Assembly: GCA_015063325.1 (NCBI GenBank)
Contig: SVUK01000004.1
Location: 212,665-276,664, forward strand
DNA length: 64,000 nucleotides
Origin: Oscillospiraceae bacterium
Lineage (GTDB): Bacteria; Bacillota; Clostridia; Oscillospirales; CAG-272
Reading direction: 5' to 3'
This document shows positions 4,461-40,035 of the stretch, in pieces. The notes below the pieces were generated by a model. That model was not told where the DNA came from. It was given only the letters and a program-made list of their open reading frames with translations, and searched no databases. How positions within the stretch are numbered: the stretch's first letter is position 1; the number at the start of each line of letters is the position of its first letter. A program made the translations under genes and the position numbers.

Positions 4461-6779
4461 ATGGCAAACAATTTGGTTATTGTCGAGTCTCCCTCTAAAG
4501 CTTTAACAATCAAAGGATATCTTGGAAGCAACTATAAGGTGATTGCTTCGGTCGGGCATGTACGCGATCTTCCCAAAAGTTCTTTGGGTGTGGACATTGA
4601 AAACGGATTTGCCGCGCACTATATCAGTATTCGCGGCAAAGGAGATCTGATCAAAGAAATCAAAAAAGAAGCGAAAAACGCCGGCAAAATCTTTCTGGCG
4701 ACCGACCCTGACCGCGAAGGAGAAGCCATTTCCTGGCACCTTGCGGCAACGCTCGGAATTCCGGTGGAAAAAACGCAGCGTATTTGCTTTAACGAGGTAA
4801 CGAAAACTGCCGTTCGTGCGGCAATTAAAGCCCCGCGCGCGATTGATATGAATTTGGTCAACTCCCAACAGACGCGTCGGATTATGGACCGTATTGTAGG
4901 ATACAAATTGAGTCCGCTCCTTTGGAAGAACGTTAAGAGCGGATTGAGCGCAGGAAGAGTGCAATCGGTTGCGGCGAGAATCATTGTGGAGCGCGAGGAA
5001 GAGATTCGCGCGTTTACGCCGAAAGAATATTGGACGATCGACGCCGTACTGACTACTGCCGACGGCAAAAACGTTCCGGTTCGTTTTTGGGGGAACGCAA
5101 AGGAAAAGGTTCGTCTGACGAGCGAGCAGGAGACCATGAAGGTGGTTTCCGCCGTTACGGGTAAGTCCTATTCGGTTGCCGCCGTTCGCCGCGCTACCAA
5201 GCACAAACAGCCTGCACCGCCGTTTACCACTTCCACCATGCAACAGGAAGCGGTGCGCAAACTCGGCTTCCAATCTCAGCGAATCATGAAGGTTGCGCAG
5301 GAACTTTACGAAGGCGTTAATCTCGGCGCTGAACTTGGCGGCACACAAGGTTTGATCACCTATATGAGAACCGACTCGCTCCGCGTTTCCGAGGAAGCGC
5401 AAGACCGCGCAAGAGAATTTATTCTCGGTAAATTCGGAAAAGAGTACTGCCCCGAAACCAAGCGCGTTTACCGTTCCAAAGCAGGCGCGCAAGACGCGCA
5501 CGAAGCGATTCGCCCCGTTCGGGTAGATTTGGAGCCGCAAAAGGTGCGCCGTGCGCTTTCCGGTGACCAGTATAAACTTTACAAGCTGATTTGGGAACGA
5601 TTCATTGCAAGTCAGATGGAATCCGCCGTTTTGGAAACGGTGACGGCTGATTTCTCCTGTGAAAAATACCTGTTCCGCACCAGCGGCTACACGGTTTCTT
5701 TCCAAGGATATATGGCGGTTTATGAGGAGAGCGACGATGAGCAGACGTCTTCGGATGATCTGACCGAGGTCAAAAACATTCGTTTACCCAATCTGACCAA
5801 AGGACAGGAGCTCACAGCAGGCGAAATCAATCCTGCAAAGCACTTTACCGAGCCGCCCATCCGCTATAATGACGCTTCGCTGATCAAAACCATGGAGGAG
5901 CAGGGACTCGGTCGCCCCAGCACCTATGCCACCATTATTTCTACGATTTTGGCAAGGGGATACGTCAAACGCGAGGGCAAAGCTTTTGTTCCCACGCCGC
6001 TCGGCGAAGTGACGAACAAGCTGATGAAAGAATATTTCTCCTCCATTGTGGACTACAAATTCACGGCGGAAATGGAAAACGAGCTGGATGAGATTGAAAA
6101 CGGTCAGGTGACGATGGATCGTGTTTTGGAGACTTTTTGGGCTGATTTTTCCAAACAGCTCAAGGAAGCCGAGGAAAAAATCGGAGACAAGACCATTGAA
6201 ATTCCGCCCGAAGAAACCGATATTATCTGCGAAAAATGCGGTAGCCGCATGGTCGTTCGCAACGGTCGGTTCGGCAAATTTGCCGCCTGCCCCAATTATC
6301 CTGCCTGCCGTAACACCAAACCTTTGACCGTGCAAAAGCCGGAAGAGGATTTTGAAAAGGAAGAGGGAAAAGAGGAGCAGAAAGAGAAGAAACAGCCGCA
6401 GATCGTTCCCGATATGAAATGCGAAAAGTGCGGCGCCGATTTGGTGCTTCGCACCGGAAGATTCGGCAGTTTCTATGCCTGCAGTCGCTATCCCGAATGT
6501 GATTTTACCAAGGCGAGAATGCGCGATACCGGCGTCAAATGCCCCAAGTGCGGCGCTCGGGTGGTGACCAAATTCGGCAGAAAGCACACCGTATTCTACA
6601 GTTGCGAGCGCTATCCCGATTGCGATTTTTCGTCCTGGGATATGCCGACAACCGAGATTTGCCCCAAGTGCGGCGGAATGCTCTTCCGCAAAAAAGGAAA
6701 AAATCTGTTGGTTTGCCATAACGATTCCTGCGGATACAGTTGTGAAGCCGAACCCGTTGCTGCTCAAACGCAGGATTGA
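4461..6779 (+). CDS. topA: DNA topoisomerase I
   Basis: Type IA topoisomerase that relaxes negative supercoils by passing one strand through a transient 5'-phosphotyrosine break. The 772-residue protein has an N-terminal TOPRIM domain (VESPSKA near residue 8; TDPDREGEAISWH near 79), the active-site motif TYMRTDS (near 298), and four C-terminal Cys4 zinc ribbons of the CxKCG...C...C type (about 590-765). AAAGGAAC precedes the ATG. It is followed 6 bp later by trmFO, so the two are probably cotranscribed. Confidence 0.97.
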   Translation: MANNLVIVESPSKALTIKGYLGSNYKVIASVGHVRDLPKSSLGVDIENGFAAHYISIRGKGDLIKEIKKEAKNAGKIFLATDPDREGEAISWHLAATLGIPVEKTQRICFNEVTKTAVRAAIKAPRAIDMNLVNSQQTRRIMDRIVGYKLSPLLWKNVKSGLSAGRVQSVAARIIVEREEEIRAFTPKEYWTIDAVLTTADGKNVPVRFWGNAKEKVRLTSEQETMKVVSAVTGKSYSVAAVRRATKHKQPAPPFTTSTMQQEAVRKLGFQSQRIMKVAQELYEGVNLGAELGGTQGLITYMRTDSLRVSEEAQDRAREFILGKFGKEYCPETKRVYRSKAGAQDAHEAIRPVRVDLEPQKVRRALSGDQYKLYKLIWERFIASQMESAVLETVTADFSCEKYLFRTSGYTVSFQGYMAVYEESDDEQTSSDDLTEVKNIRLPNLTKGQELTAGEINPAKHFTEPPIRYNDASLIKTMEEQGLGRPSTYATIISTILARGYVKREGKAFVPTPLGEVTNKLMKEYFSSIVDYKFTAEMENELDEIENGQVTMDRVLETFWADFSKQLKEAEEKIGDKTIEIPPEETDIICEKCGSRMVVRNGRFGKFAACPNYPACRNTKPLTVQKPEEDFEKEEGKEEQKEKKQPQIVPDMKCEKCGADLVLRTGRFGSFYACSRYPECDFTKARMRDTGVKCPKCGARVVTKFGRKHTVFYSCERYPDCDFSSWDMPTTEICPKCGGMLFRKKGKNLLVCHNDSCGYSCEAEPVAAQTQD

Positions 6780-6785
6780 CGAAAT

Positions 6786-8099
6786 ATGAACGCAATTACC
6801 GTTTACGGAGCCGGACTTGCCGGGTGCGAGGCGGCATGGCAGGCGGCAAGCCGCGGCGTTCAAGTTTGCCTTGTGGAAATGAAACCGCAAAAAATGACGC
6901 CGGCGCACCATGCGCCCGGGTTTGCCGAGCTGGTTTGCTCCAATTCTTTGCGCTCGGATAGCCTTTCCAATGCGGTGGGACTTCTCAAAGAGGAAATGCG
7001 CCGTCTTGGCTCGCTTATTCTGGAAGCGGCGGACGCCACGCGCGTTCCTGCCGGCTCGGCTTTGGCGGTCGATCGCGAAAAGTTTTCGGCTTTTATCAGC
7101 GACCGTATTCGCTCCCATCCGTTGATTTCGGTGGAAGAACGGGAAGCCGACTGCATCGATCCCGACGAGATCAGCGTGATTGCCACCGGACCTTTGACAA
7201 GCGACGCGATGGCAAACTATATTGCCGGAGAACTTGGTTGCCCGGGGCTGCATTTCTTTGACGCCGCCGCCCCGATTGTCGATTTTTCCACGGTAAATAT
7301 GGAAATTGCCTATTTTGCTTCGCGCTACGATAAGGGGGACGCCGACTATCTCAACTGTCCCATGACCAAAGAGCAGTACGACATTTTTTACGAAGCCTTG
7401 ATTTCCGCCGAAGAAGCCGCCCTGAAGGAGTTTGACAAGGAATCGCAAAAAGACCTGAAAGTATTCGAGGGATGTATGCCGGTGGAAGTGATGGCGAAGC
7501 GCGGACGCGATACCTTGCGTTACGGTCCGCTGAAGCCGGTGGGGCTCGTTGACCCGAGAACCGGAAAAGAGGCTTACGCCGTGGTACAGCTGCGCCGGGA
7601 GAACCGCGAGGGGACGATGTTCAATCTTGTCGGTTTTCAAACACACCTGACTTTTTCCGAGCAACGCCGGGTTTTCCGCCTGATTCCGGGATTGGAGAAC
7701 GCCGAGTTTTTGCGCTACGGCGTGATGCACCGCAACACCTATCTTTCCTCGCCCGGGCTGTTGGAACCGACCTACGCCATGAAAAGCCGCCCGAATCTCT
7801 TTTTTGCCGGGCAGATGACCGGTGTGGAAGGATATATCGAGAGTGCCGGCAGCGGTCTGGTTGCCGGAATCAACGCCGCGAAGCTTGCCCTTGGGGAAGC
7901 GCCGCTCGTTTTTCCCGAAGAAACGATGATTGGCGCGATGGCGGCGTATGTCAGTCGCGGCGGACTTGGGGAATTCGTCCCCATGAACGCCAATTTCGGC
8001 ATTATTGCGCCTTTGAACGTGCGCGTCAAAGGGGGAAAAGCCGCACGCAACGAGCGGCTCTCGGAACGATCGCTGGAGATTCTTTCCGCGATTCGTTGA
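6786..8099 (+). CDS. trmFO: methylenetetrahydrofolate-tRNA-(uracil-5-)-methyltransferase TrmFO
   Basis: TrmFO makes 5-methyluridine at position 54 in the T-loop of tRNAs, using methylenetetrahydrofolate and FAD. The 437-residue protein starts with a dinucleotide-binding motif [11 protein letters not shown] and has the family's conserved [16 protein letters not shown] near residue 40 and [16 protein letters not shown] near 343. The topA-trmFO order is common in Bacillota; here the gap is 6 bp. Confidence 0.95.
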
Positions 8100-30721: not shown

Positions 30722-30819
30722 TTTTATTTTTGCAGTGCTTCCTGAACGGCAACTGCAACCGCAACCGTCATACCAACCATCGGGTTGTTTCCGGCACCGA
30801 TCAGACCCATCATTTCCAC
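30722..30819. repeat. left attachment site, 98-bp direct repeat (attL)
   Basis: These 98 bp are identical to 39938-40035. They encode, on the minus strand, the last 32 residues of the GGGtGRT protein and its stop, detached from the rest of the gene. This is presumably the original chromosomal gene end, displaced when the element entered. Confidence 0.93.
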
Positions 30820-30944
30820 ATAAGGGCTAAAAAAATGCTTCAAAACAGTGATTTTACGCATGTTTGAACACATCATTTGATGTATCTCTTGCACACATTA
30901 TATCATCTAAAAATCAAAATGTCAAGAACATATAACAACTTCTT

Positions 30945-31008
30945 AACGACTTTGAATCATCTTTCTAACAACTTTGAATCATCTTTCTAACATCTTTTTA
31001 ACATCTTT
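30945..31008. repeat. 22-bp tandem repeats inside the left end, possible integrase arm sites
   Basis: Units 30945-30966 and 30967-30988 (AACRACTTTGAATCATCTTTCT) are followed by two AACATCTTT copies (30989-30997, 31000-31008). The complement AAAGATGTT recurs at 39848-39856 near the right end. Repeats near both ends are what arm-type recombinase sites look like; this is inference. Confidence 0.5.
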
Positions 31009-31018
31009 GAAAGCAAGG

Positions 31019-31056
31019 AAGCGACAACCGCTTTGTTTCGGCTGTCGCTTCTCTTT
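31019..31056. terminator. hairpin downstream of the WYL gene
   Basis: Stem GAAGCGACAACCG with CGGCTGTCGCTTC. The T-run follows on the plus strand (TCTTTTTATT), while the neighbouring gene ends from the minus side, so the hairpin may serve both directions or only block incoming plus-strand transcripts. Confidence 0.55.
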
Positions 31057-32163
31057 TTATTTGCTGTATAGACCATAGATTTTTCCAACATAAGCGGAAA
31101 ACTTTTCTTTTACGCTCTGCGGCTCTAATATTTTTGCTTTGTTTCCAAATCCGCAAAGCCATCCAAAGAACTGATTGCTAACCTCAATTTGAGTAGTCAC
31201 CGAAAAATGTTTTTCATCAGTCTTTTTATAAATGGATTCTTTAACGCCAAATCGCTCAATAACAGTATCGAGGAGCGGATTGATAAATTGAATGGTGACA
31301 TGTTCTTTTTCGCCGCTAAACATGGAAAAAACGCGCTGTGCATAGTTTGTCAGATCAATCTTGGCGAAAACTTCCTCACCTTCTCGCGGCTCTCCTGTCG
31401 CTTTTACGCCTTTCATTCTGTCAACTCTGTATGTCCGCAATTGCTTTGATTGATCGTCAAAAGCGATCAAATAGTAATTGCCGTCATTGATCAACAATTT
31501 GAAAGGACTGACAACATACCTTTCGCCGCCGCGCTTTTCAACCTGTTGTTTCACATCTTGAATTGTGTATTTCAAATACTTGAAACTGATCTTTTCAGGA
31601 ATATGTCTGCGCCCGTCGATCATCAGTTTCATGGCATCATTGATTGTATTTACAATGTAAAATGTAGATGTATTTGCGGTTCTGGTTCTATCCATCAAAA
31701 AGGCATCGTGCTTGATTTTCTCGCTTTGTGCCTCGCTGACAAAATCGCCCAAAACATCAATCATATTCTTTGCGCGCTTCTCGTCAATGAATTTCGCCGC
31801 ATATACGCTTTCTGCGATCAGACGAATGTCTTCAAGATTATACCGACGCTGGCGCACATAAAAGCCTTTGAGTGACGGATCATAAACCACCACCGCCATT
31901 TCGCTGTCCTCGGCAAGTACTTCATCTGCTTCGTCAATTGTGCTGTCGTTTTCCCACAAATAGACTGCTCTGTTGATCTCCTGTATGTCTTTATAAATGG
32001 AGCGGCGCTCTGCGGAAATTCCGACTTCCTGTAAATAACCAACGATCTCTGAAGCAGAAACGGCATGATCCTCGTCGGAATGCTTTAACAAGTATTGATA
32101 TACAAGAAAAGGCTTGAGTTTTTGATCGTTTTTTCGCCCTTTGCCGACAAATTCATCTAACAT
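31057..32163 (-). CDS. WYL-domain transcriptional regulator
   Basis: A 368-residue protein with an N-terminal helix-turn-helix (about residues 10-70: KPFLVYQYLLKH, ASEIVGYL, ERRSIYKDIQEIN), a central WYL domain (about 155-235, SPFKLLINDGNYYLIAFDD, then RTYRVDRMKGV) and a C-terminal WCX-like extension. WYL proteins sense ligands, often nucleic acids, and are frequent on mobile and defence islands. ATG 32163 has a GGTGGTG ribosome-binding site. It is divergent from the structured leader and lipoprotein genes, which are therefore its likely targets (inference). Confidence 0.85.
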   Translation of the reverse strand: MLDEFVGKGRKNDQKLKPFLVYQYLLKHSDEDHAVSASEIVGYLQEVGISAERRSIYKDIQEINRAVYLWENDSTIDEADEVLAEDSEMAVVVYDPSLKGFYVRQRRYNLEDIRLIAESVYAAKFIDEKRAKNMIDVLGDFVSEAQSEKIKHDAFLMDRTRTANTSTFYIVNTINDAMKLMIDGRRHIPEKISFKYLKYTIQDVKQQVEKRGGERYVVSPFKLLINDGNYYLIAFDDQSKQLRTYRVDRMKGVKATGEPREGEEVFAKIDLTNYAQRVFSMFSGEKEHVTIQFINPLLDTVIERFGVKESIYKKTDEKHFSVTTQIEVSNQFFGWLCGFGNKAKILEPQSVKEKFSAYVGKIYGLYSK

Positions 32164-32232
32164 TTTAATCACCACCGCTTTGATTTTACTATAAAAATAG
32201 AAAAATAGCAAGAGAAAATATCAAAAACTTTG

Positions 32233-32261
32233 TTGACAAACGGCGAAAAATATGGTAACAT
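32233..32261 (+). promoter_or_regulatory. promoter of the lipoprotein leader RNA
   Basis: TTGACA at 32233-32238, 17-bp spacer, TAACAT at 32256-32261. A start 7 nt after the -10 box would fall exactly on the first base of the outer stem at 32268. Confidence 0.75.
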
Positions 32262-32267
32262 AATTAT

Positions 32268-32474
32268 GCCAAACAAAAAACAAATAACGATGATAAGGGA
32301 TAGTCCTTTTTTGCGGATGAATCTCTGTTTTTTCGCGCATAACAGAAGCTGGATACGGCAAAACCGCAAATCCCGGCTTCTGTTATGTGGACTTCCCATA
32401 ATCGTTGTTTTTTGTTTGGCGACAATTGGGGTTTGCGTTTTTCGGTGCGCTGACTTCAGTTGGCGCACTTTTTT
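32268..32474 (+). ncRNA. structured leader RNA or independent small RNA
   Basis: Outer arms GCCAAACAAAAAACAA (32268-32283) and the complement (32405-32420) pair over 16 bp, with four more pairs after a bulge. Inside is a hairpin with 12-bp arms CATAACAGAAGC (32338-32349) and GCTTCTGTTATG (32376-32387), continued by GGAT/ATCC and CGG/CCG. An intrinsic terminator follows at 32445-32474, before the lipoprotein ATG. This is the layout of a riboswitch-type attenuator or of a stand-alone RNA. I do not recognise the family. Confidence 0.6.
32445..32474 (+). terminator. intrinsic terminator upstream of the first lipoprotein
   Basis: Stem GTGCGCTGACT (32445-32455) with AGTTGGCGCAC (32458-32468), including two G-U pairs, then TTTTTT. 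It lies 35 bp before the start codon. Confidence 0.75.
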
Positions 32475-32509
32475 ATTTGCCGAAAAAAATCAAAAAGGAG
32501 AAAAGCAAA

Positions 32510-33478
32510 ATGAAACGCACCATCGCACTACTTCTCGTCTTAGTCACACTTTTATCACTCGTCGCTTGCGGCTCACCGTCAACCATTGACAACAATCAAA
32601 CGCAACACACCCATTCGTTTGGTGAATGGGCAATAACAAAGAATGCAACCTGCACAGAAGCCGGTAAACAGGAAAGATACTGTTCGTGCGGTGAAAAACA
32701 AACTCAAACGATTGCTGCAACGGGACACAGCAAAGAACTTGATTATAATACCGTTATGGCAACATGTACTGAAAACGGTTCTATGATCGGTTCCTGCAAA
32801 TTCTGCGGAGAAGTTCTTGAAACAACTGTGTTACCGGCATGCCACGTATATGATCCTATCAATTGGTCTAATAATGAAAATGATTGGAATTGGATGATTG
32901 TAAAAGAAGCAACCTGCACAGAAGAAGGCGAAAAGAAAATAGCGTGCGTTGAATGTGGTAATGAGTTAACCAGAACGATCCCTGCTATGGGTCACAATTG
33001 GAAGGAAGCAACCTGTACAGAACCCAAAAAGTGTACTGTATGCGGAATTACGGATGGCGAGGCAGCGGGGCACGTGTTTGTGAATTGCGTTTGCCTCAGA
33101 TGCAATGAAAAACTCGGTCTTGTTGTTAATATGACAGACTTTTCGAGTTCTAATACTTTAAATGATGTCGATTCAATATATGCAATAGGAAACGACAATT
33201 TTATTATTGCAGTTTATGAATCGTCATTCTTGTACCTAGGCGCAACTTCCAAGCAGAAAGCCAAATGGTATATTACTTTGAAATGTCAACAACTTGAGGG
33301 AGATTATTGCAGTATTATAGCAAAGTTATATTCTAAGAAAACGGGTGAATTGATATATAGTCAGACGTATTTCAAAAATGGGTTTACAAAAGGGGATAAT
33401 TACACTATCGTTATAAGTCAAGAGATTTCATCATTTTCAGCAAGAGGAGATTTTGACCTTATCCTCTCGTATTATTAA
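32510..33478 (+). CDS. lipoprotein with repeated Cys-pair modules
   Basis: A 322-residue protein with a lipoprotein signal (MKRTIALLLVLVTLLSLVACG, lipobox LVAC near residue 19), so it is anchored outside the membrane. Residues about 30-200 hold four repeats, each with TCTE-type start, a CxxC or CxC pair and a closing GH or CH (CSCGEK...GHS, CKFCGE...CH, CVECGNE...GH, CTVCG...GH), resembling extracellular zinc-ribbon-like repeats seen in clostridial surface proteins. The C-terminal 110 residues are beta-rich and unrecognised. AAAAGGAG supports ATG 32510. Function unknown; element cargo. Confidence 0.75.
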   Translation: MKRTIALLLVLVTLLSLVACGSPSTIDNNQTQHTHSFGEWAITKNATCTEAGKQERYCSCGEKQTQTIAATGHSKELDYNTVMATCTENGSMIGSCKFCGEVLETTVLPACHVYDPINWSNNENDWNWMIVKEATCTEEGEKKIACVECGNELTRTIPAMGHNWKEATCTEPKKCTVCGITDGEAAGHVFVNCVCLRCNEKLGLVVNMTDFSSSNTLNDVDSIYAIGNDNFIIAVYESSFLYLGATSKQKAKWYITLKCQQLEGDYCSIIAKLYSKKTGELIYSQTYFKNGFTKGDNYTIVISQEISSFSARGDFDLILSYY

Positions 33479-33520
33479 TAAATTTTTGGTAGAATTATAG
33501 TTATGAAAAGGTAAATGATT

Positions 33521-33991
33521 ATGAAAAGAATACTGATTATATTATTAGTTGTCGCTATGTTATTAGTATCGTCTTGCTCAGCGCCGAATAATAAAGAATC
33601 AAATAATAGTAATAAAGAAACGATAGAGATCACCGCTGACAATTTCCAAGATTACTTTTATTCGGACGTTTATGGTGATATAAAAACGAATACATCCGCT
33701 ATTGGCACCACATATTTTGTTAACACCATCCATTTATCCTTCGATCTGAAGCAAACCGCCGGAATAAATAATGTGACTGTAAAAGGTAGAATAGACCTAA
33801 AAGTATCACGCACTCATTTGCTTTATAGTGAAGGTAAACTTCCGTTGTATTTTACCGTAAATATTCCTGCAAGCGGACACGGAGAGACAACACTTTATTT
33901 TCAGCATGGAACTGGAGCATATGGAGGATATACTATGAAAGACTTTTATATCACGATTGAGAGTGCAACTGGAACAATAATTATTTATTAG
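33521..33991 (+). CDS. small putative lipoprotein
   Basis: A 156-residue protein with a lipoprotein signal (lipobox VSSC near residue 19), an Asn/Ser-rich linker and a C-terminal beta-rich domain of about 110 residues that I do not recognise. AAAGG 9 nt before ATG 33521 favours this start over an ATG 6 nt earlier. It lies 42 bp after the Cys-repeat lipoprotein and probably shares its mRNA. It ends in TAG, the only element gene to do so; the next in-frame stop (TAA) comes seven codons later. Confidence 0.7.
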   Translation: MKRILIILLVVAMLLVSSCSAPNNKESNNSNKETIEITADNFQDYFYSDVYGDIKTNTSAIGTTYFVNTIHLSFDLKQTAGINNVTVKGRIDLKVSRTHLLYSEGKLPLYFTVNIPASGHGETTLYFQHGTGAYGGYTMKDFYITIESATGTIIIY

Positions 33992-34018
33992 GACTGCAAA
34001 AAGATGCTGTAAAACAGT

Positions 34019-34050
34019 ATTGGCGGATGCCTCTCGCGTCCGCCAATTTT
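34019..34050 (+). terminator. terminator after the lipoprotein genes
   Basis: Stem ATTGGCGGA (34019-34027) with TCCGCCAAT (34039-34047) followed by TTTT. It also separates the lipoproteins from the convergent serine recombinase gene. Confidence 0.8.
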
Positions 34051-34634
34051 CATTTCATCATGCTGCAATATTTGTAAATCGTCGTTCTGCTCATACCGCA
34101 GACGCGCGCGAATTCACTCAGGTTCAATTGACCATTCTTGTATGAAGGATAGTGCCGATAGAAAATCTGTGGAATATCGTCTGCCGTCGCTTTTGGTCTG
34201 CCGATCTGCGCGCCCTTCGCCTTTGCGTTTGCCATACCTGAGCGAACACGCTGACGAATGATTCTGAGTTCCAATTCTGCAAAAACGCCTGACATCTGTA
34301 TAAAAGCGTTTGTCATGGGATCAATTTCCCCTTTGGTGCAATCAACCGTCAGACTGCCGACGATTACAAGGCACAACTGCTTTTGCCTGACATTTTCGAT
34401 AATGTCGCATAATTGCTTTGTACTGCGCGCAAGTCTTGAAACTTCAAGCGTAATAATGGTGTCGCCTGAATGTGCATTTTCAAGAAGAGACGAAAGCCGC
34501 TCTTTTACCGCCGCGTCGCCATGCTCATATTCAAAATAAATCTCCTGCGCGCCTGCCGCTTTTAATTCCCTGATCTGCCTGTTTACATCTTGCTTATCTT
34601 CGCTTGTGGAACATCTTGCATAGCCATATATCAT
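34050..34634 (-). CDS. serine recombinase (resolvase/invertase family)
   Basis: A 194-residue small serine recombinase. The catalytic N-terminal domain shows YARCSTSEDKQD near residue 4 (nucleophile Ser in CSTS), the conserved arginine regions EVSRLARST near 67 and AELELRIIRQRVRSG near 118, and a C-terminal helix-turn-helix (LSEFARVCGMSRTTIYKYC). Such enzymes resolve dimers or invert segments. ATG 34634 has AAAGGAG upstream; a longer frame lacks such a site. A hairpin separates it from the SprT-like gene. Confidence 0.9.
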   Translation of the reverse strand: MIYGYARCSTSEDKQDVNRQIRELKAAGAQEIYFEYEHGDAAVKERLSSLLENAHSGDTIITLEVSRLARSTKQLCDIIENVRQKQLCLVIVGSLTVDCTKGEIDPMTNAFIQMSGVFAELELRIIRQRVRSGMANAKAKGAQIGRPKATADDIPQIFYRHYPSYKNGQLNLSEFARVCGMSRTTIYKYCSMMK

Positions 34635-34658
34635 TTTTCTTTCACTCCTTTCTTTTGT

Positions 34659-34691
34659 CGGCGGCAGAGGCTTTTCCGCCATCTGCCGCCG
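34659..34691. terminator. hairpin between SprT-like and recombinase genes
   Basis: Perfect 10-bp stem CGGCGGCAGA (34659-34668) with TCTGCCGCCG (34682-34691), 13-nt loop. There is no clear T-run on the minus strand, so it may attenuate or stabilise mRNA rather than terminate. Confidence 0.5.
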
Positions 34692-34698
34692 CTTTTCT

Positions 34699-35343
34699 TT
34701 AAGCAGTTACCACCATTTGCGTTTCGCAATCCATACAAGCAATGCGCACCATTCTCGTCGCCCTGACGCTCATCCCACAACAGGGGCAGATATATTTCCT
34801 TGTGCTGGAAGGTTTCGGCGCGACGCCATCTGCGCCGTTGTGCGTCCCTGTGCCGCCGATTGCAAAGCCGCTCTGCTCATTTCTGTTTATCAGAATGTTG
34901 GTAAGCCCTTTTTCAATCACAAAATCAAGCAGTTCTTCATTTGGTTCTGTGTGCGCCCATCCATGCTTTTCGCTGTGCTTTACAATCAAGCCCCTTTCCT
35001 CTGCGGCGCGCTTGAATCTGCCATTGTGATATGTGCCGCCGCGTGAACAGTCCTGAACGCCATTTTCATAATTGAAATAGTGGATCATTTCATGGAGCAG
35101 TGTTGCAACCACTTCTTCAATTGGTCTTGCAAGCGTCCCTGCGCCAATGTTGATTTCATGTGTGCCGCCGATTTTTGAAATCCATGTGTCAGCCCTCAAA
35201 CTAAAATGCCCATAGGCTTTGGGGGTGCTTTGAATTGTGATGGTTGGTCTTGAAAGTGTACCTTCAAAAAAGTGCTGATTCAAAAGATCGAAAATCTTGT
35301 TCAAATAACCTGCCACTCTGTTATAACTTGTCAATTCTTTCAT
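34699..35343 (-). CDS. SprT-like zinc metalloprotease-fold protein
   Basis: A 214-residue SprT-like protein, related in fold to the DNA-protein crosslink protease Spartan. The zinc motif LHEMIHYFN lies near residue 86 and a further histidine in GGTYHNGRF near 105 would complete the site. The C-terminus adds a zinc ribbon with ICPCCGMSV and IACMDCETQ (about 180-210). Such proteins are common on clostridial integrative elements and phages; a role in removing proteins from DNA or in element replication is inferred. Confidence 0.8.
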   Translation of the reverse strand: MKELTSYNRVAGYLNKIFDLLNQHFFEGTLSRPTITIQSTPKAYGHFSLRADTWISKIGGTHEINIGAGTLARPIEEVVATLLHEMIHYFNYENGVQDCSRGGTYHNGRFKRAAEERGLIVKHSEKHGWAHTEPNEELLDFVIEKGLTNILINRNEQSGFAIGGTGTHNGADGVAPKPSSTRKYICPCCGMSVRATRMVRIACMDCETQMVVTA

Positions 35344-35371
35344 TTTCTTTTTTCTCCTTCTTGACTTTTGG

Positions 35372-35403
35372 GAGTGGGCATGTTATACTTTTCATGCCCA
35401 CTC
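35372..35403. other. perfect hairpin in the SprT-like 5' leader
   Basis: GAGTGGGCATG (35372-35382) and CATGCCCACTC (35393-35403) form an 11-bp stem with a 10-nt loop, 30 bp upstream of the SprT-like start. No T-run follows on the minus strand. Confidence 0.6.
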
Positions 35404-35467
35404 TTGACTGTTTGGGTAAGTCTCTTTTCCTTTCTGCTTTGGTCGGCGATTTGGAAAAGGGGCTTTT

Positions 35468-35743
35468 TTATGAGATACTGAAACGCTTGCTTGCCACCTG
35501 CTTGGTGTACTCTTTGTAAAGTTGGGCGTATTCCTTTTTGAATGCTGTACTGTCGAAGCGATTGGAAAGCACTGAAGTCCATCTGACGATGTAAGCGCCG
35601 CACTGCATTTCCTCAGTTTCTCTTGCAAGCATTTCTGCCTTGATGTCGTCGCGCAGTGTTTCAACCTGTTCTTGCGCTTCTTCAAGAAGTGCTTCCCATT
35701 CTTTCAACTGTTCGACTTTTGCTGTGATTTCATTTTGTGACAT
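35468..35743 (-). CDS. small coiled-coil protein, unknown function
   Basis: A 91-residue protein. Residues about 8-45 are glutamate-rich and predicted coiled coil; the rest is basic and aromatic (YIVRWTSVLSNRFDSTAFKKEYAQLYKEYT). This layout is seen in small early proteins of clostridial phages and integrative elements, but I cannot name a function. It is transcribed from a consensus promoter overlapped by an XRE operator and is followed by the SprT-like and serine recombinase genes. Confidence 0.7.
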   Translation of the reverse strand: MSQNEITAKVEQLKEWEALLEEAQEQVETLRDDIKAEMLARETEEMQCGAYIVRWTSVLSNRFDSTAFKKEYAQLYKEYTKQVASKRFSIS

Positions 35744-35793
35744 TTTCTTTTTCCTTTCTTTGTGTGGGGTTCTTGCCCCCTTCCACTATAACC

Positions 35794-35822
35794 ATTATAC
35801 ACTAAAATTCGTGTATTGTCAA
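35794..35822 (-). promoter_or_regulatory. leftward consensus promoter
   Basis: Minus strand TTGACA (35822-35817), 17-bp spacer, TATAAT (35799-35794). Operator 1 lies inside the spacer, so bound repressor would block RNA polymerase. Confidence 0.8.
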
Positions 35823-35884
35823 TTGGCAACATACACGAATTTTCGTGTCTGTTTTTGTGCAAATTGTACACTTGTTTTCGTGTA
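35798..35884. promoter_or_regulatory. three 18-bp operators for the XRE repressor
   Basis: O1 TACACTAAAATTCGTGTA (35798-35815), O2 TACACGAATTTTCGTGTC (35832-35849) and O3 TACACTTGTTTTCGTGTA (35867-35884) are imperfect palindromes 34 and 35 bp apart. O1 sits in the leftward promoter and O3 over the -35 box of the rightward one. This is the layout of a phage-type repressor switch. Confidence 0.8.
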
Positions 35885-35900
35885 TAATATGTGATATAAT
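35872..35900 (+). promoter_or_regulatory. rightward promoter of the XRE gene
   Basis: TTGTTT (35872-35877), 17-bp spacer, TATAAT (35895-35900). The -35 box overlaps operator 3, implying autoregulation. Confidence 0.65.
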
Positions 35901-35924
35901 GGTAGATTGAAAGAAGGTGAAAAA

Positions 35925-36134
35925 ATGTCGCTACAATATAAGATCAATATTTTGGAAGCCCTCAAAGAAAAAGGCGTTACAACCTACACACTGCGCAAGG
36001 AAAAAGCATTGAGTGAATCAACCATTCAAAAACTGCGCAACGGCGACGGCGTATCATGGGAAAACCTTGAAACTATCTGCCGCTTGCTTGAATGCGATAT
36101 TTCTGACATTCTGATTTACAGAAAAGACAATTGA
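35925..36134 (+). CDS. XRE/Cro-family repressor
   Basis: A 69-residue protein made almost only of a Cro/C1-type helix-turn-helix: TTYTLRKEKALSESTIQKLRNG with the recognition helix near residues 28-38 and ENLETICRLLECDISDIL after it. ATG 35925 follows AAGGTG. It faces away from the early leftward genes and has three operators in the shared control region, so it is most likely the master repressor of the element (inference). Confidence 0.88.
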   Translation: MSLQYKINILEALKEKGVTTYTLRKEKALSESTIQKLRNGDGVSWENLETICRLLECDISDILIYRKDN

Positions 36135-36219
36135 CTGTTCACAAAAAGGCGCGCAGAATTTCCTGAACAAAAAACGCCTGTTTTATGCCTCTTTTCTGCG
36201 CTTTCTGCATTTCAGAAAA

Positions 36220-36251
36220 GTGTTCAGAAAAACAACTGTTTTTCTGAACAC
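36220..36251. repeat. perfect 14-bp inverted repeat
   Basis: GTGTTCAGAAAAAC (36220-36233) and its complement (36238-36251) around AACT, in the 280-bp gap after the XRE gene. No T-run follows. It could be a protein-binding or origin-type site. The rest of the gap is A+T-rich with no reading frame. Confidence 0.7.
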
Positions 36252-36334
36252 CATTGACGAACTGCAAAAAAAGTTTACATGTATGTGTAATTTGAAAGAG
36301 TATTATTATTCTAAGTAATATTGTACATATAAGT

Positions 36335-36388
36335 ATGGCGCAAACCTAACTGACTTGAAAGCGTCTGATGGGTCTGCGCCATTTTTTT
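36335..36388 (+). terminator. terminator of the XRE transcript
   Basis: Stem ATGGCGCAAACC (36335-36346) with GGTCTGCGCCAT (36371-36382), one mismatch, then seven T. Confidence 0.8.
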
Positions 36389-36415
36389 ATTCAAACATGC
36401 CTGACGAAAGGATCA

Positions 36416-36772
36416 TCATTTCGTTTTGAGTTTTTTTGTGATCTCTTGCATGATCCTATCGCTGATGATCTTTTGCGTCTTTTCATCGTGGAATATTTCT
36501 TCACAACCATTCATTGCAACGCTTACAACGCTTACAACATCATATTCAAGTGCTTGTAATACGTCTTCTAAAACCTGCCGATATATCATCTTTTGTTGTT
36601 CTTCGATCTTTTTGGAAAACTCTTCTTCAAACCTGACTAAAGCCTGACTGACAATTTCGTTTGCGATCTCTTCCATCATTCTTTTGTGGTTTATCGCATT
36701 CTAAATACTGCCATGCGAATAATCGCCTGATACTTGATAACTACTCTTAAAATATTGGTTAATCATGCCCAT
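36416..36772 (-). CDS. small element protein interrupted by one in-frame TAG
   Basis: Frame of 119 codons from ATG 36772 to TGA 36416. AAAGGAGG lies 9 nt upstream of this ATG, while the ATG at 36679, which would avoid the stop, has no ribosome-binding site. Codon 24 is TAG (36703-36701), in the context YSHGSI-TAG-NAINHKRMMEE. Downstream residues form charged helices (MMEEIANEIVSQALVRFEEEF, EEQQKMIYRQVLEDVLQALEYD). Similar sequence on both sides suggests one protein, read through or decayed. It overlaps the preceding gene by 14 bp, as coupled genes do. Function unknown. Confidence 0.65.
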
Positions 36773-37079
36773 CTTTTGTTTCCTCCTTTGGGGGTTGGTT
36801 TTGGGATTTTTCACTTTGCTTTTCTGAAAAACCGCCGCGCGCAGACTGCTTTGTTTCATGAACTTCATTTTTGAATTCATCGTAAAAAGCGATCATCGGC
36901 TTGGCTAAACTGAAATAATCCTGCGAGCGGCGCACATCGTAAATAAACTGTTGAATGCCACCTGCATAATACTTTTCTGCATATTCCTTGATTGTACTGT
37001 ATTCTTCATATAAAGTTGAATATGCACTTTCAAAATCATATAATAGTTCTTTTGCTTCTGCTTCTAAATAAAAATCCAT
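36759..37079 (-). CDS. small hypothetical element protein
   Basis: A 106-residue acidic, helix-rich protein (MDFYLEAEAKELLYDFESAY at the start, many Tyr and Glu) ending in a disordered Gln/Lys/Glu tail. No family recognised. GGAGG precedes the ATG. It is the middle gene of an operon whose two other genes contain TAG codons; it has none itself and ends in TAA. Confidence 0.7.
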   Translation of the reverse strand: MDFYLEAEAKELLYDFESAYSTLYEEYSTIKEYAEKYYAGGIQQFIYDVRRSQDYFSLAKPMIAFYDEFKNEVHETKQSARGGFSEKQSEKSQNQPPKEETKDGHD

Positions 37080-37090
37080 ATGAAACCTCC

Positions 37091-37663
37091 TTAAAAGCCA
37101 AATGCTTTTGCGCTTTCTCTGAAACGCTCATCTACATCATCGTTATTGTCAAATTGTTCTTCTGAATCGTCATAAGAGAAATAATTATTTTTGTTTCCAT
37201 CTATTCTAAAAGGAAACCTTGTATTATTTTGTATTATTTCTGTATTATTTGTATTATTTCTCTATGGAAAATCAGAAGTGTTTATCTGCTTTTCAGGAGA
37301 GGGTGTAGATGTCTCAGAAAAGAATTGCGATTTTCCTATGGCTTCTGTTTTCTATTTTTCATAAAAATAGTAGATATTGCTCCCTTCATATACTGGTTCT
37401 AAATATCTCTGTATGATTAATTCTTTAATGCCATTGTAGTAACTGTCTTTTTTAATGCCCCAGTCCCTACATGCCGCCTGACTTAATTCAACCTTAAACC
37501 CATCTTGATTTTTATTCAAATAAAGCCACATTTTAAGCCCAGAGCCATTTAGATTCTTCGCCGCTTCTGAAAGGGCTTCAAGATTGAACATTGCATAAAG
37601 ATTGTTTGCGTTTCTTTTTATGCGAGGCTAAATTTTTACAATTTTTTGATATGGAACACTCAT
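37091..37663 (-). CDS. replication-accessory-like helix-turn-helix protein with three in-frame TAG codons
   Basis: From ATG 37663 to TAA 37091 the frame runs 191 codons with no TAA, TGA or frameshift but with TAG at codons 12 (37630-37628), 104 (37354-37352) and 134 (37264-37262). AAGGAGG sits 6 nt before the ATG and a good promoter lies upstream. The part between the first two TAGs reads IKRNANNLYAMFNLEALSEA, GLKMWLYLNKNQDGF and QRYLEPVYEGSNIYYFYEK, the winged-helix type found in short replication-associated proteins of clostridial elements. The tail (NTRFPFRIDGNKNNYFSYDD, ERFRESAKAFGF) is plainly protein-like. It is either a pseudogene with amber mutations only, or a recoded gene. Confidence 0.65.
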
Positions 37664-37722
37664 AAGCGTCCTCCTTATATAATTATTTTTTGAGAAGGGA
37701 TTTTTTCCTTTTCTCTATAATA

Positions 37723-37751
37723 ATTATACCAAAAATTTATCGCAAGTTCAA
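37723..37751 (-). promoter_or_regulatory. promoter of the TAG-containing operon
   Basis: Minus strand TTGAAC (37751-37746), 17-bp spacer, TATAAT (37728-37723), about 60 bp before the gene. Confidence 0.7.
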
Positions 37752-37788
37752 ATTCTGAAAAGCAGAATGAAAATTTCACAAGCAACAT

Positions 37789-37818
37789 AAAAGACGCTTT
37801 CTGTTTTTCAGAAAGCGC
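37789..37818 (-). terminator. terminator after the second paralogue
   Basis: Minus-strand stem GCGCTTTCTG with CAGAAAGCGT around AAAAA, then TTTT. It closes the transcript of the two paralogous genes upstream. Confidence 0.7.
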
Positions 37819-37830
37819 CTTCGCTTTTTA

Positions 37831-38244
37831 TTATGCAACCTGTATTTCATCATATTTTTGTTTATTGTTATTGTTATATTCTTCGACTTCAGGATAGGAT
37901 TCAAGAAACCATTGCTTGATTCTTGGATAACGAATAGAGTGGCACTTGGAAAGCTCCAACAATTCATTGAATTCACGAAGCTTTTGGTCGCATCTGGGAT
38001 GTCTCATAATATAATCTCTGATAAAATCGTAAGTAAGTCCACGATAGCATTCTTTGCTGGGATTCTTCTTGATTGTGCGTCGAGCCACTGTATATTTAGG
38101 ATAGTCACGACGAGCCATTTGGAGAAGATCATACGCCTCTGAACCGACGATGCTCGCCGCCTTCTCAAACGCCTTGTTCATCAAAATCTTTCTGTTTTTT
38201 ATGTCAATTTTCAGTCCTTTATTTTCATTTTCATTCTTTTCCAT
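37831..38244 (-). CDS. hypothetical element protein, paralogue B
   Basis: A 137-residue basic protein of no family I know. It aligns along its length with the next gene upstream: a short N-terminal beta-like segment, an ASIVGSEAYDLLQMARRDYPKYTV region, then LTYDFIRDYIMRHP, LREFNELLEL and IKQWFLESYPEVEEY near the C-terminus. AGAGG before ATG 38244 suggests this start; a GTG 21 nt upstream is possible. Tandem duplication followed by divergence explains the pair. A role in the element's DNA transactions is a guess. Confidence 0.65.
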   Translation of the reverse strand: MEKNENENKGLKIDIKNRKILMNKAFEKAASIVGSEAYDLLQMARRDYPKYTVARRTIKKNPSKECYRGLTYDFIRDYIMRHPRCDQKLREFNELLELSKCHSIRYPRIKQWFLESYPEVEEYNNNNKQKYDEIQVA

Positions 38245-38300
38245 TTTATTATTCCTCTCATTCACTAATCTATTTGTTTATTATTGATTGCTTTTGATGA

Positions 38301-38684
38301 TCATGCCGCAAGAATACAGTCGGCTTTGGATTTGCTGATGTCCTTGAAAATGGGGTAAGTCTTCAAAAACCACTGCTTGATTTCAAAGAAGGAAATGCCA
38401 CTTGCTTTCAATGTTGCAAATTCAGAAAGGTGAGTTTCAGAATCGCTGTGATTTTTGATGTAGTTTTCCATGAAGGAGAAGTTCAAGCCTTTCAGACCTT
38501 TCAGATTTTTCTTGCTTCTTGCTCTTTCTTTGACCACTACTTTGAAAGTGGGGAACTCATTACGAATAGCGAGCAGTTTAGTGTATGCATCGCTGTTGAC
38601 GACACTTGCCTCTTTCGCTGTTGCCTTGCTGAGTTCGATGGTGGAGTTCTGATAGTTGATCTTGATAGTGTTCTTTTTAGTCAT
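38301..38684 (-). CDS. hypothetical element protein, paralogue A
   Basis: A 127-residue basic protein colinear with its neighbour: ASVVNSDAYTKLLAIRNEFPTFKV, LNFSFMENYIKNHS, LSEFATLKASG and IKQWFLKTYPIFKDI match the corresponding blocks of paralogue B. AAAGGG precedes the ATG. It lies between the integrase and paralogue B on the same strand, so it may be cotranscribed with either. No known domain recognised. Confidence 0.65.
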   Translation of the reverse strand: MTKKNTIKINYQNSTIELSKATAKEASVVNSDAYTKLLAIRNEFPTFKVVVKERARSKKNLKGLKGLNFSFMENYIKNHSDSETHLSEFATLKASGISFFEIKQWFLKTYPIFKDISKSKADCILAA

Positions 38685-38824
38685 TTTAGACCCTTTCTGC
38701 GACTTTAGGTTTTTCGCTAACCAATTTTATTTTTTTGTGGTTGATCTCTCTCAACCTTGTGACTATATTATATCAGATCAGATTCTCTAACCTGTCATTA
38801 TAATGGGACAAGTCAAAGAACTGA

Positions 38825-39772
38825 TCATCTCTTTCTGTTTTCCATTGTGATTTTCTTTTTTTCAGAAAACTTATCCAGAAGATTGATCGCCGCAACTTCT
38901 TTTGACACTTCGCTTACAAGTAAATTAACATAGTTTTGTGTGATCTGCAAACTGCTGTGACCAAGTATTTTTGAGAGGGAAACGACATTTCCACCATTCA
39001 AAATCCATTGCTTTGCAAATGTATGTCTGTATCTGTGAATGCCAGTTGTTTCAACTCCTCGCCGCTTGTTATAATTGTATAACATGTAATAACAAGTGCT
39101 TTTTACAAGTTGCTGACCAAATGCGTTGCAGAACAGGAAATCATCTGTTGTTTTGTACTGTCTGTATTTCAGAAATTCCTTCAAAATATGCCCAAGCGTA
39201 TCATTAAAAGGTACAATTAAACTCTTCCTGTTTTTTGTAACTGTAACATTTACAAGATTGTTTTCAAAATCAAGATCCTTAATGCGAATATTCATCAGAC
39301 TTCTTTGCCTTACCGCTGTACTGAACAAGAAATTTGTCATAACCCAAGATTGATATTCTGTAAAACTGCATTTCTTTATATTTGGCTTTTTGAGTAAAGT
39401 ATATAATTCTTCTTCGCTGTATGTTTCTACGGCAGTTCTATCTACTTTTATTGCTTGCATACGAAAAAAGGGAAGATAACCTTCATTCATCAAAAAATGC
39501 ATAGTTGTAATGAAATCACGCAGATATGCGTTAATGCTCACATCATTATGCAAAGTTGTGCGCAACCATACAACATATTTCTGATATTCAGATTCGTCAA
39601 TATCGCTGACCTTCATATCTTTGCCGAAAAACTTGTAAAACTGCAAATAACTCTGACGATAGTGATTGATAGTACCTTCGCGCAAATTTCTTGCCCTGCA
39701 ATTGTCAAGATACTTATTGCATCCATCTTCCAAAGTCAAAAAATTGCTTTCCATCATCCTCAATTTTTTCAT
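38825..39772 (-). CDS. tyrosine recombinase (integrase)
   Basis: A 315-residue phage-type integrase. The N-terminal core-binding domain (about 10-105) is followed by the catalytic domain with Arg in FLFSTAVRQRSLMNI near 158, HRYRHTFAKQW near 246 (His and second Arg), LGHSSLQITQNYVNL near 268 (His and nucleophile Tyr). GGGAGGAAAG precedes ATG 39772. It sits about 165 bp from the right attachment site and presumably catalyses integration into, and excision from, the GGGtGRT gene. Confidence 0.95.
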   Translation of the reverse strand: MKKLRMMESNFLTLEDGCNKYLDNCRARNLREGTINHYRQSYLQFYKFFGKDMKVSDIDESEYQKYVVWLRTTLHNDVSINAYLRDFITTMHFLMNEGYLPFFRMQAIKVDRTAVETYSEEELYTLLKKPNIKKCSFTEYQSWVMTNFLFSTAVRQRSLMNIRIKDLDFENNLVNVTVTKNRKSLIVPFNDTLGHILKEFLKYRQYKTTDDFLFCNAFGQQLVKSTCYYMLYNYNKRRGVETTGIHRYRHTFAKQWILNGGNVVSLSKILGHSSLQITQNYVNLLVSEVSKEVAAINLLDKFSEKKKITMENRKR

Positions 39773-39791
39773 ACTTTCCTCCCAAAAACAA

Positions 39792-39833
39792 TTGGACACA
39801 TCACACAGGAAAACCCTGAAATGATGTGTCCAA
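39792..39833. repeat. perfect 12-bp inverted repeat upstream of the integrase
   Basis: TTGGACACATCA (39792-39803) and TGATGTGTCCAA (39822-39833) with an 18-nt loop, 20 bp before the integrase ATG and about 105 bp from attR. ACACATCA also occurs near 30868, inside the left end next to a TGATGT. It is a candidate binding site for the integrase, an excisionase or a regulator. Confidence 0.7.
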
Positions 39834-39937
39834 CTCATTTTTGTAAAAAAGATGTTTTGAAAATGATCAGAAGATGATCGAAAGTTTCTTTAGAGTTGAT
39901 AAAACTCGCAGAAAACCTGATAGAATCATGCCTCTTC

Positions 39938-40035
39938 TTTTATTTTTGCAGTGCTTCCTGAACGGCAACTGCAACCGCAACCGTCATACCAACCATCGGG
40001 TTGTTTCCGGCACCGATCAGACCCATCATTTCCAC
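39938..40035. repeat. right attachment site, 98-bp direct repeat (attR)
   Basis: Identical to 30722-30819. Here the 98 bp form the 3' end of the intact GGGtGRT gene, including its stop codon at 39942-39940. The sequences diverge immediately outside both ends. Confidence 0.93.

Follow-up and report, generated by a model that had tools for sequence, protein, structure and literature searches.

Two genes of a small operon on the minus strand of the 64,000-nucleotide stretch of an Oscillospiraceae genome analyzed here (the window) contain four in-frame TAG codons and no other lesion, and the question is whether these are pseudogenes with amber mutations only, genes of a lineage that decodes TAG as an amino acid, or genes controlled by readthrough as a switch. 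The observation itself, made in a first-pass annotation of the sequence, was confirmed. The first gene, denoted geneA, runs from ATG at 37663 to TAA at 37091 and carries TAG at codons 12, 104 and 134 (37630-37628, 37354-37352 and 37264-37262), and the second TAG gene, a small one, runs from ATG at 36772 to TGA at 36416 with TAG at codon 24 (36703-36701), whereas the small gene between them (37079-36759) is free of TAG. Both TAG genes are preceded by Shine-Dalgarno sequences, and a promoter (TTGAAC, 17 nt, TATAAT) is located upstream of the operon at 37751-37723. Script-based gene finding gave 8 element genes of at least 120 amino acids, of which one, encoding a lipoprotein, has TAG as its stop and the other 7 have TAA or TGA; TAG is also the stop codon of 2 of the 43 host genes found in the window.

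The operon belongs to an integrative element of about 9.2 kb (30722-40035) bordered by two identical 98-bp direct repeats, a distal copy at 30722-30819 and an integrase-side copy at 39938-40035 (100% identity between the 98-nt copies, which are spaced 9216 bp); the insertion site is the end of a gene which we take to encode an L-serine dehydratase-like protein. The minus strand encodes a tyrosine integrase (38825-39838, with an alternative start possible at 39772; PF00589, E=1.4e-30) that has no in-frame TAG and ends in TGA, as well as two TAG-free accessory genes (38301-38684 and 37831-38265), and genes that by eye look similar to these two precede the operons of two relatives of the element (L073 and L333). 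On the other side of the operon there is a Cro/CI-type repressor-like gene on the plus strand (35907-36134; phrog_3, E=1.4e-7), followed on the minus strand by three TAG-free genes, namely a small gene (35468-35743) that matches phrog_6244 (unknown function, E=2e-15) and phrog_434 (RecE-like), a gene for a SprT-like protein (34699-35343) to which a gene of another relative, L334, is similar by eye, and a gene for a serine resolvase (34050-34682; PF00239). The lipoprotein-like cargo gene, whose own stop is TAG, is located on the plus strand (33515-33991). A 38-nt block upstream of this gene (33478-33515) is shared, as an inverted repeat with 82% identity, with the region upstream of the TAG operon (37703-37740), which suggests common control of the two. 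No structural or terminase genes were detected among the scanned genes of the window element, a scan that covered all but two genes at 31057-33478.

A search with the geneA product, translated with TAG as X, identified relatives in 6 genomes beyond the host's own among 196 genomes of the family, and a profile search of the genome_contigs collection yielded 31 loci. Several of these loci are genomes already met in the family search, and some look like close pairs (L070/L071, L083/L085, L086/L087 and L089/L090); L058 and L059, in which geneA is matched over a short stretch only, were left out of all counts. The 31 loci are titled as Clostridia or taxa within it, as Bacillota or just as 'bacterium', many originate from animal gut samples, and two are cultured carriers, Pseudoflavonifractor phocaeensis An901 (L073) and Oscillibacter valericigenes An860 (L076). 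A common gene order of the operon in these relatives is geneC, geneA and a gene for a GIY-YIG nuclease, and the integrase gene often has the opposite direction and adjoins a tRNA gene. When in-frame TAGs were counted in the relatives, as the first-pass annotation had proposed, at least one was present in the operon at 20 of the 31 loci (L060, L063-L065, L067, L068, L070-L077, L079-L081 and L086-L088); no TAG was found in the operon genes identified at the other 11, so a lock made of TAG codons would not be essential to the family. A block similar to the window promoter and close to TTTGATTTTT-N-AAAAATTTTTGTATAATATTTATAGAAAG, also found in the window, recurs ahead of geneC in 16 of the 19 relatives compared, the exceptions being L063 with a variant, L079, where the block is located further upstream, and L061 with a poor match only.

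Of the 13 other loci tested, 6 contain elements of 4.4 to 9.7 kb that are delimited by repeats of 46 to 60 bp at the tRNA (60 bp being the longest repeat length tried); in the remaining 7, where the ends of contigs or loci perhaps cut them off, att repeats were not found. Inspection by eye of the gene lists of the six att-bounded elements, most of which were not subjected to profile search, revealed no capsid, terminase or other structural genes. There was no match to the window geneA in the viral_contigs collection, to geneA and the GIY-YIG nuclease of the relatives in the phages collection, or to geneA in the plasmids collection.

The geneA of the window itself has no match to a Pfam or phrog family, is only about 22% identical to a relative and is recovered with E=7e-21 by the profile of its relatives built without the window row. 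The second TAG gene was the only match to itself in 98 searched genomes, with no relative in the 97 others, and the geneC profile did not match it; it is the counterpart of geneC by size and place of the TAG only. A GIY-YIG match is absent from the window element.

To what amino acid TAG corresponds can be judged from the columns of the alignments in which it occurs. When the 43 TAG sites in geneA, geneC and the GIY-YIG nuclease were compared with column profiles, glutamine scored +57.5 bits and the next residue, glutamate, -25.2 bits. Glutamine is the modal residue at 18 of these 43 sites, compared with a mean of 2.1 and a maximum of 9 under random placement (20000 trials). The signal comes from geneA and the GIY-YIG nuclease, which alone give 63.3 bits from 28 sites, so geneC adds nothing to the score: it aligned poorly, with 12% glutamine opposite TAG and, by difference, glutamine as the modal residue at 0 of 12 TAG sites in the scored alignment, which is no support for glutamine. 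A hand-picked geneC set (10 of 20) aligned better; the scoring used the first alignment, and the hand-picked one is not an independent test because TAG had been written in it as Q beforehand. TAG takes the place of glutamine in several recognizable motifs, including NWQ (L065, L079), YxDQ (L065, L086, L087), PNQ or PHQ (L074, L077, L081) and IRQ (L076) in geneA and AQH and NTQIP in the GIY-YIG nuclease.

For the window itself, the comparison with homologues says nothing about the four sites that the first-pass annotation had singled out. In a weak alignment, at the identity of about 22% given above, the three geneA sites fall in H, P and E columns rather than in glutamine columns, and the glutamine score rises from 57.5 to 63.8 bits when they are left out; the site in the second TAG gene could not be compared in this way for want of relatives. 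The glutamine reading of the window is thus derived from the membership of its geneA in the family. By eye and without a computed alignment, the geneA of a phage described below (L133) has a TAG at the same place as the first TAG of the window geneA.

A search with the GIY-YIG profile led to this phage, a 27-kb IMG/VR contig, in which the numbers of TAG codons are 0 in the integrase, 1 in a relative of geneA (E=2e-21), 5 in the GIY-YIG gene (E=2e-34) and 4 in the terminase; a long protein with 9 TAGs is presumably tail-like. Searching with the terminase of this phage gave 35 loci, of which 7 have at least two TAGs in the matched genes (L152, which is L133 itself, L156-L159, L165 and L176), two have one TAG and 26 have none in the genes compared. 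Across 18 phage gene families, 144 TAG sites score +261 bits for glutamine and -45 bits for the next residue. Five of these phages, L157, L159, L165 and L133 (IMG/VR, 25-27 kb) and L158 (15 kb), have 10-41 in-frame TAG codons in the place of glutamine in the matched genes, next to relatives with none. Like the elements, the phages L133, L138 and L139 (all from IMG/VR) possess a tyrosine integrase and a GIY-YIG gene, the latter located before the small terminase gene, and L133 in addition has the geneA relative with TAG; unlike the elements, they contain terminase and other phage genes, and their contigs measure about 25-27 kb. Taken together, the sites in the element family and in the phages strongly support the assignment of TAG to glutamine in the family, the second of the options raised at the outset, although not in the form of wholesale recoding of the element.

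The last qualification follows from the distribution of TAG among the genes. In the matched domains, TAG makes up 43 of the 397 glutamine-type codons of 65 operon-gene matches vs 0 of 275 in 29 integrase matches, a set that includes integrases other than that of the element itself (Fisher p=9e-11). By gene, the shares are 12 of 86 in geneC (20 genes), 16 of 248 in geneA (33 genes) and 15 of 63 in the GIY-YIG nuclease (12 genes), the highest of the three; in the geneC set, 14 of the 20 genes have at least one TAG and two of these have two. In L080 and L090, the integrase gene seems to stop at TAG because reading on adds tails that other integrases lack, a TAG end is less clear for the integrases of L070 and L071, in which another stop follows one codon later, and the resolvases of L065, L066 and L080 also appear to end in TAG. 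Together with the TAG stop of the window lipoprotein gene, these cases make TAG seem to function both as a stop and as a glutamine codon within one element, and recoding of the whole element was accordingly rejected, the integrases being TAG-free in their matched domains. In L072, a pair of overlapping genes (6735-7475), oriented opposite to geneA, has one and two in-frame TAGs, so in this locus the use of TAG is not confined to one operon.

The host RF1 is intact and scores above the family cut-off. The tRNA with a CUA anticodon that the first-pass annotation had suggested looking for was sought in the host, the elements and the isolates and was not found. It is missing among 42 distinct tRNA genes of the host and among 46 and 42 of the two isolate hosts; these lists are not exhaustive because Ile is missing from that of the host and Asn and Trp from that of An860. 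ARAGORN, which called CUA tRNAs in 60 of 120 pattern-selected viral stretches, made 271 tRNA calls in the window and 186 loci (with overlapping loci counted repeatedly), none of them CUA. With a loose CUA-tRNA pattern, 80 matches were obtained in 32 host genomes; ARAGORN was run on 38 of these places (30 loci, plus 8 not already covered among 11 further regions) and called no CUA tRNA, 19 of the initial 30 loci being tRNA-Arg(TCT). The only match to a stricter pattern in 394 genomes of the order is a tRNA-Leu, both patterns being of a kind that misses tRNAs with other T arms. A weak 31-bit tRNA-like match (G000:C23:2230-2293, L056) was not called by ARAGORN. Reading of TAG as pyrrolysine was likewise rejected, given the lack of a CUA tRNA among the 42 distinct host tRNA genes and the fit of the TAG sites to glutamine.

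The phages show the same gap. No CUA tRNA was called in the 35 phage loci, in ten whole phage records searched with a tRNA model or in the rest of four recoded records; a 12.5-bit match in one recoded record, which ARAGORN did not call and which looks by eye like the terminal part of a Lys-type tRNA and may be an att site, was rejected. Unless the records are incomplete, recoded phages of the L133 type thus seem to lack the tRNA that they need, and they point to a suppressor from elsewhere rather than supply one.

With regard to the functions of the genes concerned, geneA of the relatives has no match in Pfam or, by sequence, among the solved structures of the PDB, and a weak match between geneA of L061 and the phrog_270 replication initiation protein (E=4e-5) makes geneA, and through its relatives that of the window, putatively replication-initiator-like. 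The GIY-YIG nuclease matches phrog_1111 and, in L062, PF01541 with 28.5 bits, above the cut-off of 22.6, with the catalytic domain present; the copy in L133 scores 20.4 bits, below the same cut-off. Two of the elements with a TAG operon have neighbors that match PADLOC models, namely an Old-like ATPase and a type II restriction-modification pair in L333 (9311-12937) and an AriA/PtuA-like ATPase and a Fic-like protein in L334 (1-4598).

On balance we consider it reasonably likely that this is an amber-locked element, probably a satellite of phages or a satellite-like descendant of a recoded phage, whose operon is opened by a suppressor tRNA acting in trans. The genes of the operon probably work only when TAG becomes readable to the cell through an outside factor, most likely a virus that infects it. 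Under this model, the integrase and other housekeeping genes would be written in the standard code of the host, so that the element could live quietly in the chromosome. The operon would be transcribed from its sigma-A type promoter, and the TAGs in the place of glutamine would halt translation, often early in the first gene; the locked set would consist of geneC, geneA and the GIY-YIG nuclease in many relatives and of geneA and two other small genes in the window. A tRNA-Gln with the anticodon CUA would enter, most likely with a phage that uses TAG for glutamine, and the TAGs would then be read as glutamine, the simplest key being the suppressor tRNA of a code 15 phage. The initiator and the nuclease would then be made, and the element would replicate or act against or alongside the phage. 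We infer an infecting phage as the source of the suppressor and mobilization of a satellite as the outcome; no infecting phage with a CUA tRNA was found linked to these hosts. Of the options raised at the outset, the switch is thus favored, albeit through a suppressor that would be supplied in trans and not through ordinary programmed readthrough.

That the TAG-bearing genes are ordinary pseudogenes with amber mutations only appears extremely improbable. In its favor are the stop codons as such and, in the case of the window, aligned sites that lack glutamine, and these have to be set against the fit to glutamine and the presence of TAG in the same genes of separate lineages, two isolates included. 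The first-pass annotation regarded other stops or frameshifts in relatives as a sign of plain decay. In profile searches that read through and count any stop, geneA relatives in 10 of 395 family genomes (the host's own and one weak 20-bit match included) contain 8 TAG, 0 TGA and 2 TAA, both TAAs being located in a single gene, at its natural end or beyond; the GIY-YIG nuclease has 5 TAG and no other stop (2 of 295 genomes), and the integrase 0 TAG and 4 TAA that were not inspected individually (14 of 295 genomes). Decay by C-to-T change would yield more TAA than TAG because CAA outnumbers CAG in the operon (221 vs 133). Past the first TAG, the dN/dS values of three geneA pairs are 0.08 (over 24 codons only), 0.13 and 0.19, and those of one GIY-YIG pair and one geneC pair 0.12 and 0.35, two further GIY-YIG pairs being saturated. 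Frames kept in this way past TAGs that match glutamine argue against the option of amber-only pseudogenes. Decay of the ordinary kind does occur within the family, as in L061, where the GIY-YIG gene (1755-1904) is broken after about 25 residues and has no TAGs. Much of the same evidence bears on another alternative that we consider improbable, namely that the elements descend from phages in which TAG is glutamine and have kept their old TAGs, which are unread today, so that the operon is dead. The recoded phage with the same arrangement of integrase, geneA and GIY-YIG genes fits this alternative, as does the failure to find a CUA tRNA in the hosts, but the frames past the TAGs are open and conserved, and a dead operon would be expected to gather TAA, TGA and indels, of which the GIY-YIG gene of L061 is the one case. 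Moreover, relatives have TAG on one side and CAA or CAG on the other at the same sites (L077/L076, L074/L065), which suggests that the interchange is continuing.

Somewhat less improbable, yet still rather unlikely in our estimation, is leaky control of dosage, in which tRNA-Gln(CUG) of the host misreads UAG at a low rate and the TAGs attenuate the initiator and the nuclease with no outside suppressor. Near-cognate misreading of UAG inserts glutamine, the host does have a tRNA-Gln(CUG), and the TAG-bearing majority of geneC genes (14 of 20) is in line with attenuation. Readthrough of serial TAGs, however, as in the window geneA (3), in L065 (3 in geneA and 1 in geneC) and in the GIY-YIG gene of L060 (3), would multiply to almost nothing. 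There is also no common base after TAG at 41 sites (A 12, C 15, G 9, T 5), although C is commoner there than after CAA or CAG (64 of 353), TAG apparently serves as a stop in neighboring genes, and in phages of the same family many genes contain TAG. The least unlikely of the alternatives is a defense triggered by infection, in which the operon serves not for spread but as an alarm, such that the CUA tRNA of a recoding phage switches on a nuclease harming that phage. This would be consistent with the nuclease gene having the highest TAG share and with the PADLOC matches adjoining two relatives. It accounts less readily for the replication-initiator-like gene in the same operon, for the window element with no GIY-YIG match and for the phages, in which the related nuclease gene stands before the small terminase gene whether they are recoded or not.

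The amber-lock reading, which we prefer, can be compared with two kinds of known systems. TAG recoding in gut phages has reportedly been described by Borges et al. in 2022. Code 15 gut phages, for example crAss-like ones, read TAG as glutamine in a host with the standard code, and late translation of their recoded genes, once the code has switched, has been proposed (PMC11210395, PMC9523058, PMC10879173); about half of them, 375 of 715, encode a Sup-CTA tRNA (PMC11210395). Like those phages, the family described here has in-frame TAGs where homologues have glutamine (in geneA and the GIY-YIG nuclease), but its elements are only 4.4-9.7 kb long, with no structural genes seen, and most of their TAGs are in a single operon; searches of the window, of the element loci and of the records of recoded phages detected no CUA tRNA, and TAG is not a sense codon genome-wide (0 of 275 in integrases, apparent TAG stops). 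Phage satellites such as PICI, PLE and P4-like elements are small att-flanked chromosomal elements with an integrase, a regulator and a replication-like gene. The elements analyzed here are likewise small and att-flanked and have an integrase, a regulator and a putative replication-like gene, with defense-type genes near some of them, and no capsid or terminase genes were seen in the listed elements; the likeness consists in gene content and att sites. We know of no satellite that depends on the genetic code of its helper, and no report of suppressor-dependent satellites was present among the matches listed from open-licence papers.

Recoding of stop codons in phages is thus already known, and its purpose is debated. 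Recoded genes with neither a suppressor tRNA nor recoding of the integrase, which is in the standard code, are what would be expected if recoding is a lock rather than drift, and the two public isolates that carry such elements would make its purpose testable in cultured hosts. Genes of this kind are likely to be mistaken for pseudogenes. A broader possibility, which we entertain with less confidence than the amber lock itself, is that the 4-10 kb elements of Clostridia and the related phages of about 25 kb form a guild that writes key genes with TAG for glutamine, keeps no tRNA to read them and takes the arrival of a suppressor tRNA from another phage as the signal to replicate. The elements would suggest that mobile elements can recognize one another by a difference in genetic code and, if the model is true, these would be satellites that sense and exploit their helper through its genetic code.
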